Of a stretch of DNA of 41,042 nt, positions 20,821 to 38,422 are shown piece after piece. The notes under the pieces were generated by a model, which searched no databases, was not told where the DNA came from, and worked only from the letters and a program-made list of their open reading frames with translations. Location of the stretch: assembly GCA_022641375.1 (NCBI GenBank), contig JALCDF010000009.1:1-41042 (forward strand), in the 5' to 3' direction. Numbering within the stretch: position 1 is the first letter of the stretch; every line of letters begins with the position of its first letter. A program made the translations under genes and the position numbers. Source of the stretch: Megasphaera sp. GTDB taxonomy: Bacteria; Bacillota; Negativicutes; Veillonellales; Megasphaeraceae.

Positions 20821-21759
20821 ATGCAAGTTTTTCATTCGTTTCAGGAAATAAAAGACTGTGATGGCGCCATAGTTGCGTTGGGGACCTTTGACGGTGTTCA
20901 TTTAGGACATCAGAAAGTCATGCGGACAGCTATGGAAAAAGCCGCTGTCCATAAAGTAAAATCGATTGTTGTTACCTTTGAGTCACATCCGTTGTCGGTC
21001 CTCTGTCCCGACAAAGAACCACCGCGATTAGCGACAGTGGAACAGAAGGAACAATATATAGCGGATGTGGGTATCGATGCACTGGTCCTTTTGCCGGTGA
21101 CAAAGCATCTTCTCGATGAATCACCGGAGGAATTCTGCCAACAGATACTTGATTATATCCATCCGTTGGGAATCGTCGTAGGTTCCAACTTTACATATGG
21201 TAAAAAAGCAGCAGGAAATACAGCCTCTTTAACGGCATTCATGGGAGCGTATGGCGTAGATGTCAATGTCCTGCATCTATTGGAACGGCCGGGACGGGCT
21301 GTACCTATTAGCAGTACGGTTATCCGCCGGCTGGTACTGATGGGACATATGGAAACGACAGCAGCGCTGTTGGGACGTCCGTTTGAAGTGACAGGCAAAG
21401 TTGTCGTGGGCGATCGTCGGGGACATCTGATAGGGTTTCCTACCGCCAATATGCTGATTCCCACAGATATGGCATTGCCGCCCGATGGTGTTTACATTAC
21501 GGAACTCGGCTGGGATGGTACCTTTCACCAGGCGATGACCAATATCGGTGCGAATCCGACGTTTGCCAATCAATACCGTCGTATCGAAACGCATATATTG
21601 TCTTTCCAGGGGAATATATATGATAAGAAAGTAGTACTGCGATTCTTAAAACGATTGCGGCCGGAAATGCAATTTGACAGTACCGAAGACCTGGTCAGGG
21701 AAATGAAATCAGATGAAAGTAAAACGATTAATTATTTTCAGTCGCTGGGATTGAAATAA
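20821..21759 (+). CDS. ribF: Bifunctional riboflavin kinase / FAD synthetase
   Basis: Converts riboflavin to FMN and FMN to FAD. The N-terminal adenylyltransferase domain has GTFDGVHLGHQKVMRTA and VVGSNFTYGKKAAGN, and PISSTVIRRLVLMGHMETTAALLGRPFEVTGKVVVG marks the join. The kinase domain follows with GHLIGFPTANMLIP, MTNIGANPTF and the ETHILSFQGNIYDKKVVLRFLKRLRPE region. Length 312. It ends the rimP operon as in Bacillus. It is not the gene behind the FMN riboswitch found at 36653, so flavin cofactor formation here seems constitutive with the translation operon. Confidence 0.95.
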   Translation: MQVFHSFQEIKDCDGAIVALGTFDGVHLGHQKVMRTAMEKAAVHKVKSIVVTFESHPLSVLCPDKEPPRLATVEQKEQYIADVGIDALVLLPVTKHLLDESPEEFCQQILDYIHPLGIVVGSNFTYGKKAAGNTASLTAFMGAYGVDVNVLHLLERPGRAVPISSTVIRRLVLMGHMETTAALLGRPFEVTGKVVVGDRRGHLIGFPTANMLIPTDMALPPDGVYITELGWDGTFHQAMTNIGANPTFANQYRRIETHILSFQGNIYDKKVVLRFLKRLRPEMQFDSTEDLVREMKSDESKTINYFQSLGLK

Positions 21760-24486: not shown

Positions 24487-25479
24487 TTAATGCTGTGAAG
24501 ATACCATGTTTTTGTCGATGATGATATCCTGATCCCGGGCTTCGATTTTATCTATATTCCGGGCAAAGATGCCAGCTAAAATGGAACCGGTGATCTGATG
24601 GATCGCAGCACCTACGGCAGCGGGAATCGCAACGGCAGGAGTAAAGAAAACCGATACCAGTGAGATAGCCAGGGCATCGTTCTGCATGCCTACTTCCAGG
24701 GTTACAGAATGTTGCTGGCGTTTGCCTAAGCCCAATTTACCGGTAACAAAGTAACCGATGGCAAAGCCGAAGAGATTATGCAGCAGTACCATGACAATCA
24801 TAAAGAATCCCAATTCGATAATCTTTTCACCGTTAATGGCGATAACTCCGCCGACAATCGTTAATACGGCAAACGCAGAAATCAGTACGAGAGCCTTTGA
24901 TAATTGCATTAAATAGGATTCGCCTATGATACGATGTACGATAAGGCCCAATACTAACGGCAGGAGGATTACTTTCATGACGGTCATGGCCATGGCCATG
25001 AAGGAGACTTCCACCCACTGGCCGGCTAAGGCCCAAACCAGGAAAGGCATCATGATCGGAGCTAACAGAGTCGATACCGTAGTAATCGATACGGCCAGGG
25101 GCACATCGCCTTTAGCCAGGAAGCTCATGACGTTAGAGGCAGTGCCGCTGGGGCAGGAACCTAACAATACCATGCCTACGGCAAGTTCCGGCGGCAGTTG
25201 AAAAGCGAGGACCAGGAGATACGCGATAATTGGCATAATCGTATAATGACAGGTAGTACCGATGAGGACTTCCCGGGGCCGCTGGAAAATCAGTTTAAAA
25301 TCCGTTGCATGCAAGGTCATGCCCATGCCAAACATAACGACACCCAATAATAATACCGTATTGGGTACGGCCCATAAAAAGGCGTTAGGCATAAAGTAAG
25401 CCCAGACAACGACGGCAAGGACGATATATGTTAAATACTTGCCGACAAAACCACTTAATTTTCCGATAATATTCATCAT
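24487..25479 (-). CDS. Bile acid:sodium symporter (BASS) family transporter
   Basis: Sodium-coupled organic-anion transporter of the BASS family, 330 residues with 9-10 membrane helices. The conserved GMGMTLHATDF, GSCPSGTASNVMSFLAKGDVPLAVSITTVSTLLAP (sodium site) and TLEVGMQNDALAISL motifs are present. Characterised bacterial relatives include PanS, which takes up 2-ketopantoate; the name bile acid transporter reflects the family only. ATG at 25479 has AGGAGG at 25488-25493 (minus strand) with an eight-base spacer; the extra 12 upstream codons are rejected. A complete T-box leader lies directly upstream, so expression should respond to an uncharged tRNA, probably tRNA-Val. Transport of an amino-acid-related keto acid is my inference. 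Confidence 0.87.
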   Translation of the reverse strand: MMNIIGKLSGFVGKYLTYIVLAVVVWAYFMPNAFLWAVPNTVLLLGVVMFGMGMTLHATDFKLIFQRPREVLIGTTCHYTIMPIIAYLLVLAFQLPPELAVGMVLLGSCPSGTASNVMSFLAKGDVPLAVSITTVSTLLAPIMMPFLVWALAGQWVEVSFMAMAMTVMKVILLPLVLGLIVHRIIGESYLMQLSKALVLISAFAVLTIVGGVIAINGEKIIELGFFMIVMVLLHNLFGFAIGYFVTGKLGLGKRQQHSVTLEVGMQNDALAISLVSVFFTPAVAIPAAVGAAIHQITGSILAGIFARNIDKIEARDQDIIIDKNMVSSQH

Positions 25480-25541
25480 AAAAAATTCCTCCTCTGGAAA
25501 AAAACATAAATCCAAATACGGAAACGGCTTGATTGTCCCAT

Positions 25542-25582
25542 AAAAAAATACTTTGCCTCTATGAAAGAGACAAAGTATTTTA
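25542..25582 (-). terminator. T-box regulated terminator
   Basis: Minus-strand hairpin AAATACTTTG with CAAAGTATTT around a TCTCTTTCATAGAGG loop region, followed by a T run. It is the off state of the T-box switch. Confidence 0.85.
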
Positions 25583-25833
25583 TACTCTGCGGTACCACTC
25601 TAATTGTCAATATAATTGACCACTTTGCGGACATCTCGGGATACACCTTGTAATGCCTGGTTGGATAACGGTTACCTTGCCGGCTGCGCCTACTTGTCAA
25701 AACGTTCAGGAAGCTGCTCCTGGGCGACTTCATGTCGTAGTATCATCCTGCTTTTCACCATTGGCAGGTCTCTGTTATGACGTTACGGACATTACTACTC
25801 CCAATCAACACTGTTTTGTATTTGTTGAAGCTT
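25542..25833 (-). promoter_or_regulatory. T-box riboswitch (specifier reads GUC, valine)
   Basis: The minus strand carries a full T-box leader. The antiterminator T-box sequence AGAGTGGTACCGCAGAG is at 25601-25585. Stem I has the AGTAGTA side of the specifier loop, a distal loop with GGTGAAA closed by CCTGC/GCAGG, and the opposite loop side GAAGTCG between ACAT and CCCAG; by the usual GAA-NNN-purine layout the specifier is GTC at 25728-25726. A terminator (25582-25542) ends the leader. When tRNA-Val is uncharged the transporter should be switched on. The T-box call is firm; the specifier is read by eye. Confidence 0.9.
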
Positions 25834-36016: not shown

Positions 36017-36583
36017 ATGAAGTCGAAAATAAATGTTACTATTTTCCATAACGGGGATATGGATATTTTACGGGCCTCGGTGTATGAAGAACTATGGAAA
36101 GATTATAGTACTTTTAAGCGACGGGCTTCTGTGCAGACTGATAAAGGGACGGAGAAGGGCCGGTTCCTGGCACGCCGGTATGAACGGGCGGCCTTGTTGT
36201 CGTTGTATGCTTTTTTTGAAGGCGTAGTGGATAACTGGATGGATAAGATCAGCCAGGATCAGGTGGAATATCAGGGGTTGGAACAAGTCAGCCTGGAAGA
36301 GAAATGCCGCCATATTTTGCGATATTGTTTTTTCCAGACCTATACCCGGGCCAGTTTGGATTTTTCCCGGTTGTGGGAGTTTGTCCAGCGGTATGAACGG
36401 CATGATTTGTTACTGCTGGAATATGTGGATCACACCGTATTAACGGATTTGGAACAGGATATAGACGCATATTTTCATTTTGTCGAATCCATGACGGATT
36501 TAAAGCGTTTCCCGCCGGCGGACCGGTCAACCAATCATATCATCGACTCCCTTGGGGGCATGGTAAAAGGCTGCTGTAAATGA
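36017..36583 (+). CDS. Helical protein of unknown function after mscL
   Basis: I do not recognise the family. The 188-residue product is predicted to be mainly alpha-helical and soluble, rich in aromatic and charged residues (RFLARRYERAALLSLYAFFEGVVDNWMDKI; LWEFVQRYERHDLLLLEYVDHTVLTDLEQDIDAYFHFVESM). It has no signal peptide and no clear catalytic motif; the overall helical character loosely resembles HEPN-like proteins but the RX4-6H motif is not evident. It begins three bases after mscL behind AGAGGGTAGGAT, so it is co-transcribed with yerC-like gene and mscL. Confidence 0.72.
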   Translation: MKSKINVTIFHNGDMDILRASVYEELWKDYSTFKRRASVQTDKGTEKGRFLARRYERAALLSLYAFFEGVVDNWMDKISQDQVEYQGLEQVSLEEKCRHILRYCFFQTYTRASLDFSRLWEFVQRYERHDLLLLEYVDHTVLTDLEQDIDAYFHFVESMTDLKRFPPADRSTNHIIDSLGGMVKGCCK

Positions 36584-36592
36584 TGACGGTAG

Positions 36593-36621
36593 TTGCAAAT
36601 AACGGATAATGGTGATATCAT
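36593..36621 (+). promoter_or_regulatory. Promoter of the FMN riboswitch transcript
   Basis: TTGCAA (36593-36598) and TATCAT (36616-36621), spacer 17, about 30 bases before the aptamer. A second TATAAT at 36627 is an alternative -10. Confidence 0.6.
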
Positions 36622-36652
36622 AAACATATAATTCATAATAAATATTAGTTAC

Positions 36653-36782
36653 AGTCTTTGAGGCATGGTGAGAAAGGGAAATCCTTTCGTATTCCTGACC
36701 GGCGGTATAGTCCGCGACCTCTTTTTAGAGTTGACCCGGTGTGATTCCGGGACCGACAGTATAGTCTGGATGGGAAAAGACT
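36653..36782 (+). promoter_or_regulatory. FMN riboswitch (RFN element)
   Basis: The conserved RFN blocks are present in order: GAGGCATGGTGA, the core TGACCGGCGGTATAGTCCGCGACC, a P4/P5 region with TTGACCCGGTGTGATTCCGGG, and the 3' block ACCGACAGTATAGTCTGGATGGGA. P1 closes with AGTCTT (36653) and AAGACT (to 36782). P2 carries an extra hairpin (36672-36688). A terminator follows at 36825. High FMN should end transcription before the kinase gene. The aptamer call is firm. Confidence 0.93.
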
Positions 36783-36824
36783 TAGGGCGCAGAAGCGTTT
36801 GTTTGCTGTGCCGTTCTCATGCAT

Positions 36825-36852
36825 AAAAGACTGGCTTGCCAGTCTTTTTTTT
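36825..36852 (+). terminator. FMN-controlled terminator
   Basis: An 11-bp stem (AAAAGACTGGC / GCCAGTCTTTT, loop TT) with a T run. Its 3' arm AGTCTTTT repeats the 5' strand of riboswitch P1, so it can pair instead with the P1 3' strand AAAAGACT: a simple switch. Confidence 0.88.
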
Positions 36853-36898
36853 ATTTATTCAAATCAAAATGCCCCAGGGATGGAAAGGCGGGAGCAAT

Positions 36899-38422
36899 AT
36901 GGGAAAAAAATATTATATTGGATTTGATGCGGGGACACAGAGCGTGAAGGTCGCTGTCTATGACGAGGAAGGCAATTGTGTTGCCATGGACACGGATAAA
37001 ACGCATTTGTCGTATCCTCATCCCGGCTGGGTCCAAATGGATATCGATGAATATTACCAGCTGGTCAAACAGTGCATGGCGTCATGCAGCCGGCAGATGA
37101 GGGAAAAGAAGCTGGATGTCAAAGCTGTGCAGTCATTGATGGGCGATGGCATCATCTGCGGTATTGCCGGTATTGATGATGACGGCCATGCCGTAACTCC
37201 TTTCGTTAACTATCTGGACAGTCGAACGGCGGAAGATGTGGAAGCATTAAAACAGCAGCAGCTGCCTATTTGGGCAACAGAAACGGGAAATGCTGAACCG
37301 AATGTCATGTTTCCGGCAATGTTTGCCCGTTGGTTCATCAAAAATGTCCCTGCATTTCATGATAACGGTGTAAAATTCACCCATAATTGTCCGTATATCA
37401 TGATGCATCTGGCAGGACTCCGGGGACAAGACGCGTTTATCGACTGGGGCACCATGTCCGGCTGGGGATTGGGATATAATGTACTTACGAAAGAATGGTC
37501 ACAAGCCCAATTGGATATTTTGGGGATTGACCGGAAATATATGCCCCGTATTGTAAAGCCCTGGGATATTATTGGCAGGTTGTGTGAAAAAGATGCGGCG
37601 GAAACGGGTTTTCCGGCGGGAATCCCTATCTGTGCCGGTGCGGGAGATACCATGGAATCCATGATGGGCAGCGGCATATTAGAACCGGGACGGGCTGTCG
37701 ATGTGGCCGGCACGTGTGCCATGTTCTGTGCGGCTACGGATGGAATCGTGCCTGAATTATCTGTACCGGGGAGCAACCTCATCTTCAATTCCGGGACACT
37801 TCCTAACACCTATTTTTACTGGGGGATGGTCCGTACCGGCGGGTTGGCGTTGCGGTGGTTCAAAGATAACGTTGCCAAACATGAAGAGGACGAATATTAT
37901 AGCAAACTGGATGAGCTGGCCCAACGATTTCCTGCCGGCTGCGATGGCGCCATGTTCATTCCGTATCTGACGGGTGGAAATGGATCCTATCCGCATGTAC
38001 GCGGTACGTTCACGGGACTGACACTGGATTCGGATCAGGGTGCGATGTGGCGTTGTGTCCTTGAAGGAATCGGCTATGATTATATGGAAATAACGGATCG
38101 CTACCGTCATGCAGGGATTGACCTGACGCGGCTTATCATCACCGAAGGCGGCAGTCATGATGCGTTGTGGAATCAAATAAAAGCGGATATGCTGGATACG
38201 GAAGTAGGTACACTGGAAGTTGCCGGCGGGGCTGTTCCCACCAACTGCATCGTGGCAGCCTATGCGGCCGGGGATATACAGAGCCTGGATCAGGCATTGC
38301 GCCGCAGGTTGATCGTCAAACAGACGTTTTTGCCGCGCAAGGAAATTACGGCGATGTACCGCCAGCAATATCTACGACGTGAAGTCGTATTAAAGTCCTT
38401 GAATGAAGCGGAAAAAATGTAA
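36899..38422 (+). CDS. FGGY-family carbohydrate kinase (xylulokinase-like)
   Basis: ATP-dependent sugar or polyol kinase of the FGGY family, 507 residues. The N-terminal phosphate-binding loop is YYIGFDAGTQSVKVAVYDEEG, followed by PGWVQMDIDEYYQ, then GDGIICGIAGIDDDG and NYLDSRTAEDV. The catalytic Asp is in PICAGAGDTMESMMGSG (about residue 248), and the C-terminal ATPase motif is LIITEGGSHDALWNQIKADML. It is closest in general pattern to xylulokinases, but ribulose, xylulose or a polyol could be the substrate. ATG at 36899 follows GGCGGGAG. It sits directly behind an FMN riboswitch and terminator, an unexpected regulator for this family; a ribulokinase would supply ribulose-5-phosphate, a riboflavin precursor (speculation). 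Confidence 0.88.
   Translation: MGKKYYIGFDAGTQSVKVAVYDEEGNCVAMDTDKTHLSYPHPGWVQMDIDEYYQLVKQCMASCSRQMREKKLDVKAVQSLMGDGIICGIAGIDDDGHAVTPFVNYLDSRTAEDVEALKQQQLPIWATETGNAEPNVMFPAMFARWFIKNVPAFHDNGVKFTHNCPYIMMHLAGLRGQDAFIDWGTMSGWGLGYNVLTKEWSQAQLDILGIDRKYMPRIVKPWDIIGRLCEKDAAETGFPAGIPICAGAGDTMESMMGSGILEPGRAVDVAGTCAMFCAATDGIVPELSVPGSNLIFNSGTLPNTYFYWGMVRTGGLALRWFKDNVAKHEEDEYYSKLDELAQRFPAGCDGAMFIPYLTGGNGSYPHVRGTFTGLTLDSDQGAMWRCVLEGIGYDYMEITDRYRHAGIDLTRLIITEGGSHDALWNQIKADMLDTEVGTLEVAGGAVPTNCIVAAYAAGDIQSLDQALRRRLIVKQTFLPRKEITAMYRQQYLRREVVLKSLNEAEKM

Follow-up and report, generated by a model that had tools for sequence, protein, structure and literature searches.

A putative riboflavin-pathway FGGY kinase behind an FMN riboswitch in Megasphaera and other bacteria, and its probable bypass of RibB

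The window analyzed here, 41,042 nucleotides of Megasphaera sp. DNA, is a whole contig (JALCDF010000009.1) of a 1.69-Mb genome assembly (GCA_022641375.1, genome G000) that is 79% complete. In this window an FMN riboswitch lies directly ahead of a gene for a kinase of the FGGY carbohydrate kinase family, an observation that we regard as real beyond any practical doubt. The elements of the locus, and a riboflavin gene found elsewhere in the window, are as follows.

36593-36621, plus strand: promoter-like site TTGCAA-N17-TATCAT with a TG ahead of the -10 element (extended -10), from a promoter scan.
36650-36785, plus strand: FMN riboswitch aptamer of the ribD type, with a long P2, from the RF00050 covariance match.
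36652-36659, plus strand: P1 5' strand (CAGTCTTT), whose alternative partner is the terminator 5' arm, from predicted pairing.
36776-36782, plus strand: P1 3' strand, from the aptamer match and predicted pairing.
36814-36833, plus strand: downstream half of the predicted antiterminator (TTCTCATGC spacer plus AAAAGACTG), from predicted pairing.
36825-36852, plus strand: intrinsic terminator, a 10-bp stem (36825-36848) followed by a T run, from a terminator scan.
36899-38422, plus strand: FGGY kinase of 507 amino acids, intact from ATG to stop; almost certainly a flavin-regulon member and proposed as a RibB bypass enzyme.
20821-21759, plus strand: ordinary RibF (riboflavin kinase/FAD synthetase), a context gene elsewhere in the window.

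A preliminary description of this DNA had reported a complete FMN riboswitch with a terminator, leading straight into an FGGY kinase gene, and this reading holds, no rib gene being present between the two; the start that it gave, 36593, takes in the promoter-like site ahead of the aptamer. The kinase ATG at 36899 is preceded by GGCGGGAG and is a sensible start, while a listed TTG start at 36836 was rejected for its position inside the terminator. A scan between 36852 and 36899 for a promoter that would drive the kinase independently of FMN, a possibility raised in the same description, found no promoter-like site, and no transporter gene directly follows the kinase: a 320-bp gap separates it from hbd and crt, both unrelated. 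Upstream (36017-36583, plus strand) lies a gene for a 188-amino-acid protein that has no Pfam or NCBIfam match and is conserved in Megasphaera after a TrpR-like gene.

The aptamer belongs to RF00050 by both its covariance score (96.7 bits against a gathering threshold of 66.2; E value, 2.8e-21) and its completeness, the match covering positions 1 to 138 of 138. The expression platform appears able to switch with P1: besides the terminator, the leader contains a P1 5' strand that is predicted to pair either with the P1 3' strand or with the terminator 5' arm AAAGACTG, and the predicted whole-leader energies are -69.8 kcal/mol for the P1 state versus -69.0 kcal/mol for the antiterminator state. 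With FMN bound, P1 would close and the terminator would form; without FMN, the P1 5' strand would pair with the terminator 5' arm and the kinase would be transcribed. The design of the leader, as predicted from pairing, is that of an FMN-off transcriptional switch, and the kinase is presumably under FMN control in vivo. The riboswitch also precedes the kinase in four other Megasphaera genomes, whose leaders are predicted to have the same competition between P1 and antiterminator; in two of them the two states lie within about 1 kcal/mol, and the other two favor P1 by about 5 and 9 kcal/mol. A similar promoter-like site ahead of the switch was recognized by eye in all four. Genome G000 has two further FMN riboswitches, on ribBA and ribD. 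Since the kinase switch shares the long P2 and P1 with the ribD-type switch of Megasphaera, it is most likely a duplicate of that switch.

The protein scores above the gathering thresholds of both FGGY_N (PF00370, 126 bits) and FGGY_C (PF02782, 66.4 bits) and has kept the catalytic Asp, D250, in a GAGDTM motif that is invariant across 42 homologs and lines up with GGGDN in XylB; it is therefore a member of the FGGY family. It is not a xylulokinase by the XylB model TIGR01312 (212.1 bits against an equivalog cut-off of 380.25), and every other named kinase model scores lower still. The FGGY fold was confirmed by an AlphaFold model (pLDDT, 90.8), which resembles xylulose, gluconate, and glycerol kinases and the autoinducer-2 kinase LsrK about equally, so that a substrate was not discernible from the model and its structure matches. 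The aligned family is 54 to 87% identical to the window protein, with more than 100 invariant columns. Given the low scores with named families and the even structural resemblance, this is a conserved FGGY subfamily of its own, without an assigned substrate. In Megasphaera sp. NM10 (L016/L091) a stop breaks the kinase gene into two frames, and the nearby PolC is also split, which may reflect sequencing error or decay.

FMN riboswitches were found directly ahead of orthologous kinase genes at 27 of 83 loci, in several families and with differing switch sequences. In five further Megasphaera genomes, the kinase comes straight after the same 188-amino-acid gene, with a few tens of bases between them and no switch. 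Outside the genus, switch-led related kinases (54 to 62% identity) are present in Clostridium magnum, C. aestuarii, two Desulfosporosinus, and three Anaerotignum-type genomes, as well as in Coprococcus catus and many other Lachnospiraceae, a family of which few members carry the kinase (3 of 200 genomes). C. magnum has three FMN switches, one on a rib operon, one on a gene judged by eye to be ribU-like, and one on the kinase. In three Anaerostipes genomes, the kinase is the final gene of an operon that runs FMN switch-ribD-ribE-(ribBA or ribA)-ribH-kinase. On well-supported branches of the kinase tree, the presence of the switch requires at least 10 changes. Thus, both marks of a flavin regulon, a switch in several lineages (27 of 83 loci) and a place in rib operons (three genomes), were observed, and the gene arrangements leave little doubt that the kinase belongs to this regulon.

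The same distribution bears on the idea that a riboflavin transporter or rib gene was deleted and the kinase came under the switch by accident, without functional meaning. Such fusions can happen, and the Megasphaera switch, as a copy of the ribD-type switch, would suit one; however, the pairing occurs in many genera with differing switch sequences, and the kinase sits in the rib operon of Anaerostipes, which makes an accident scarcely credible. The loss of a ribU-like gene from between switch and kinase, suggested in the preliminary description, is likewise unsupported, as the arrangement recurs in several lineages with switches of different sequence; the five switch-less Megasphaera genomes, with the kinase straight after the same upstream gene, hold no trace of a transporter, and the lost-transporter reading was rejected on both grounds.

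Carriers of the kinase appear to make riboflavin, because RibH and RibF are nearly always present: among 20 genomes with switch and kinase, RibH was found in 17 and RibF in 19, the exceptions being small or incomplete assemblies. The presence of RibF also speaks against the idea that the kinase phosphorylates the ribityl chain, as an additional riboflavin kinase or in place of the usual one. Such an enzyme would logically be induced by FMN shortage, and FGGY kinases do act on polyols, but with RibF in all but one of the carriers tested, including this window, the kinase is no substitute for riboflavin kinase, and replacement was rejected. To our knowledge, no FGGY enzyme acts on a flavin, and a riboflavin kinase would leave the loss of RibB described below unexplained; we consider this role very improbable.

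Among the 43 RibH-containing genomes that carry the kinase, 12 are missing the whole RibB domain (3,4-dihydroxy-2-butanone 4-phosphate [DHBP] synthase, PF00926). The ribBA gene of A. butyraticus and A. avistercoris is reduced to its RibA half, within the kinase-bearing operon; in strain TWA4 and four Synergistaceae only RibA is left, adjoining RibH; and Anaerostipes 992a retains no more than a truncated piece of RibB. No RibB was found in Sutterellaceae (Dakarella, Mesosutterella, and Duodenibacillus) or in Succinatimonas, and it is absent too from the rib clusters read there. Four more genomes (those of loci L094, L098, L100, and L109) encode a full-length RibBA whose RibB half lacks the acidic loop RENEGD and the GHTE histidine; this half is 40 to 46% identical to intact ones, versus 69 to 72% for the RibA half, and appears from these changes to be ruined. 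The control was drawn from Lachnospiraceae only: RibB is missing from 1 of 72 kinase-free genomes with RibH, and in that single genome the contig ends 194 bases from RibH. RibB loss is therefore commoner in carriers that keep the pathway than in noncarriers, with a Fisher P value of 2e-5 for 12/43 versus 1/72 and of 9e-7 when the four dead RibB halves and two further intact carriers are counted (16/48), both significances being inflated by relatedness. Some of the genomes compared are metagenome assemblies. On the kinase tree, RibB status nevertheless requires at least six changes. An intact RibB is kept by Megasphaera and by about two-thirds of kinase carriers. One Megasphaera genome, G010, has RibH, no kinase, and no match to RibB; only 70 bases separate the end of its ribBA-type switch from a contig end, so an assembly gap probably accounts for the missing RibB.

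That the kinase is tied to riboflavin synthesis, as the preliminary description had proposed, is borne out by the recurrence of the switch, by rib operon membership, and by these losses. The particular tie that it envisaged, a feed of ribulose-5-phosphate to RibB, fares less well. A pentulose kinase of this kind would be induced by FMN shortage to phosphorylate D-ribulose or D-xylulose and so supply the RibB branch. XylB is indeed the closest named family, though the score is well under its cut-off; most carriers keep RibB; and the supply of ribulose-5-phosphate limits riboflavin production in engineered strains. However, RibB, the consumer of ribulose-5-phosphate, is gone or dead in 16 carriers that keep RibH, where any extra would be useless for riboflavin, and the kinase neighborhoods contain no linked pentose transporter or isomerase. 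We therefore disfavor this route and regard it as unlikely.

The FMN switch, the membership in rib operons, and the repeated loss of RibB lead us instead to read the kinase as a substitute for RibB. On this genomic evidence we propose, with moderate confidence, that it is a riboflavin-pathway enzyme, most likely one that provides DHBP by a route that bypasses RibB. It would supply L-3,4-dihydroxy-2-butanone 4-phosphate, the four-carbon precursor used by lumazine synthase. The product of RibB is a phosphorylated 1-deoxy-tetrulose, and FGGY kinases phosphorylate ketoses at terminal hydroxyls. In its simplest form, the reaction would thus be the ATP-dependent phosphorylation of 3,4-dihydroxy-2-butanone, a 1-deoxy-tetrulose, to DHBP. 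We propose this reaction because FGGY kinases such as XylB act on ketoses and because 1-deoxyketoses can be formed: according to PMC3424233 (its references 40 and 39), 1-deoxy-D-xylulose is a substrate of E. coli XylB, and 1-deoxyketoses can be products of pyruvate and acetoin dehydrogenases. The choice of 3,4-dihydroxy-2-butanone as the substrate is tentative, resting on chemical analogy. Its origin is a matter of guesswork; it might arise by carboligation of a pyruvate-derived unit to glycolaldehyde, and clustering of the kinase neighbors gave no consistent partner gene for its production, a result that, like the intact RibB of most carriers, counts against the proposal. In Megasphaera, which has kept RibB, the kinase would open a second way to DHBP, one repressed by FMN, while in A. 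butyraticus and other lineages it would have made RibB dispensable and so allowed its deletion or decay.

At five loci (L089, L098, L137, L139, and L140), a gene for a Cof-type HAD phosphatase (PF08282) adjoins that of the kinase or its rib operon; this phosphatase is a candidate for the phosphatase step of the riboflavin pathway. This adjacency would fit another reading, in which the replacement for RibB was another enzyme and the kinase has a different flavin-related job, such as ribityl salvage or the re-phosphorylation of a precursor from which the HAD phosphatases of the pathway have wrongly removed the phosphate; dihydroxybutanone itself could be such a by-product. Yet the phosphatase link is confined to few loci, no other gene tracks the loss of RibB in the neighborhoods read, and repair of DHBP would be the very reaction proposed above while leaving RibB loss unexplained. 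A separate job of this sort seems doubtful.

Among known systems, XylB (TIGR01312; PDB 2itm) shares the FGGY fold, and its substrate 1-deoxy-D-xylulose (via PMC3424233) is a close chemical analogue of the one proposed here; the kinase differs from it in falling well short of the XylB cut-off (212 against 380 bits), in having 24% identity in the structure match, and in forming a conserved subfamily of its own. LsrK (PDB 5ya0-5ya2) is also an FGGY kinase with a similar fold score, and its substrate is a small deoxy-ketone ending in CH(OH)-CH2OH; the present kinase scores 144.6 bits against the LsrK cut-off of 528, and no lsr genes were seen nearby. RibB would deliver the same product, DHBP, but is unrelated in protein and chemistry, converting ribulose-5-phosphate to DHBP and formate. 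An alternative RibB, RibB2, has been postulated in Sinorhizobium meliloti (PMC9478397); like the kinase, it is a proposed replacement for RibB in a bacterium, although its host belongs to the Alphaproteobacteria. A C. ljungdahlii gene, CLJU_c14910, was listed in 2015 as a 'carbohydrate kinase' behind an FMN riboswitch without an obvious role in riboflavin metabolism (PMC4418817). It resembles the Megasphaera kinase in both respects, as a carbohydrate kinase and in the riboswitch that precedes it; it stood there as a single case, and the passage concerned does not mention recurrence, rib operon membership, or a link to RibB. In the literature covered, which was partial, this gene and the Sinorhizobium RibB2 hypothesis were the only matches for a kinase-based DHBP route or a lack of RibB in these taxa.

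RibB is treated as indispensable for riboflavin synthesis, and its presence is demanded by rules for predicting vitamin phenotypes of gut bacteria (PMC6593275). The kinase probably represents a second, hitherto undescribed source of the building block that RibB contributes to riboflavin. If it supplies DHBP, the riboflavin pathway has a second entry point, some genomes scored as auxotrophs may be prototrophs, a drug directed against RibB would meet a natural bypass, and the riboswitch-controlled kinase listed in 2015 would acquire a role. It is tempting to assume that gut anaerobes possess an alternative branch of riboflavin synthesis, in which an FMN-riboswitched FGGY kinase makes DHBP from unphosphorylated 3,4-dihydroxy-2-butanone and has permitted the loss of RibB in several lineages, an extension that we put forward as a possibility a little short of probable.

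Several further regulatory elements were encountered. In Desulfosporosinus acididurans (L243, G064:C25:5500-9500), a fourth FMN riboswitch is followed by RibB-domain fragments with the middle missing, apparently what is left of a second ribBA. A weaker FMN riboswitch (80.6 bits) in an Anaerotignum genome (L208, G068:C42) precedes a gene for a transporter that looks MATE-like by eye and is a candidate flavin transporter. In the Megasphaera window itself, a T-box leader (117 bits; 25563-25817, minus strand) stands ahead of a membrane transporter gene (24487-25515, minus strand) that has, judged by eye, the look of the bile acid:sodium symporter family and would be amino acid responsive.
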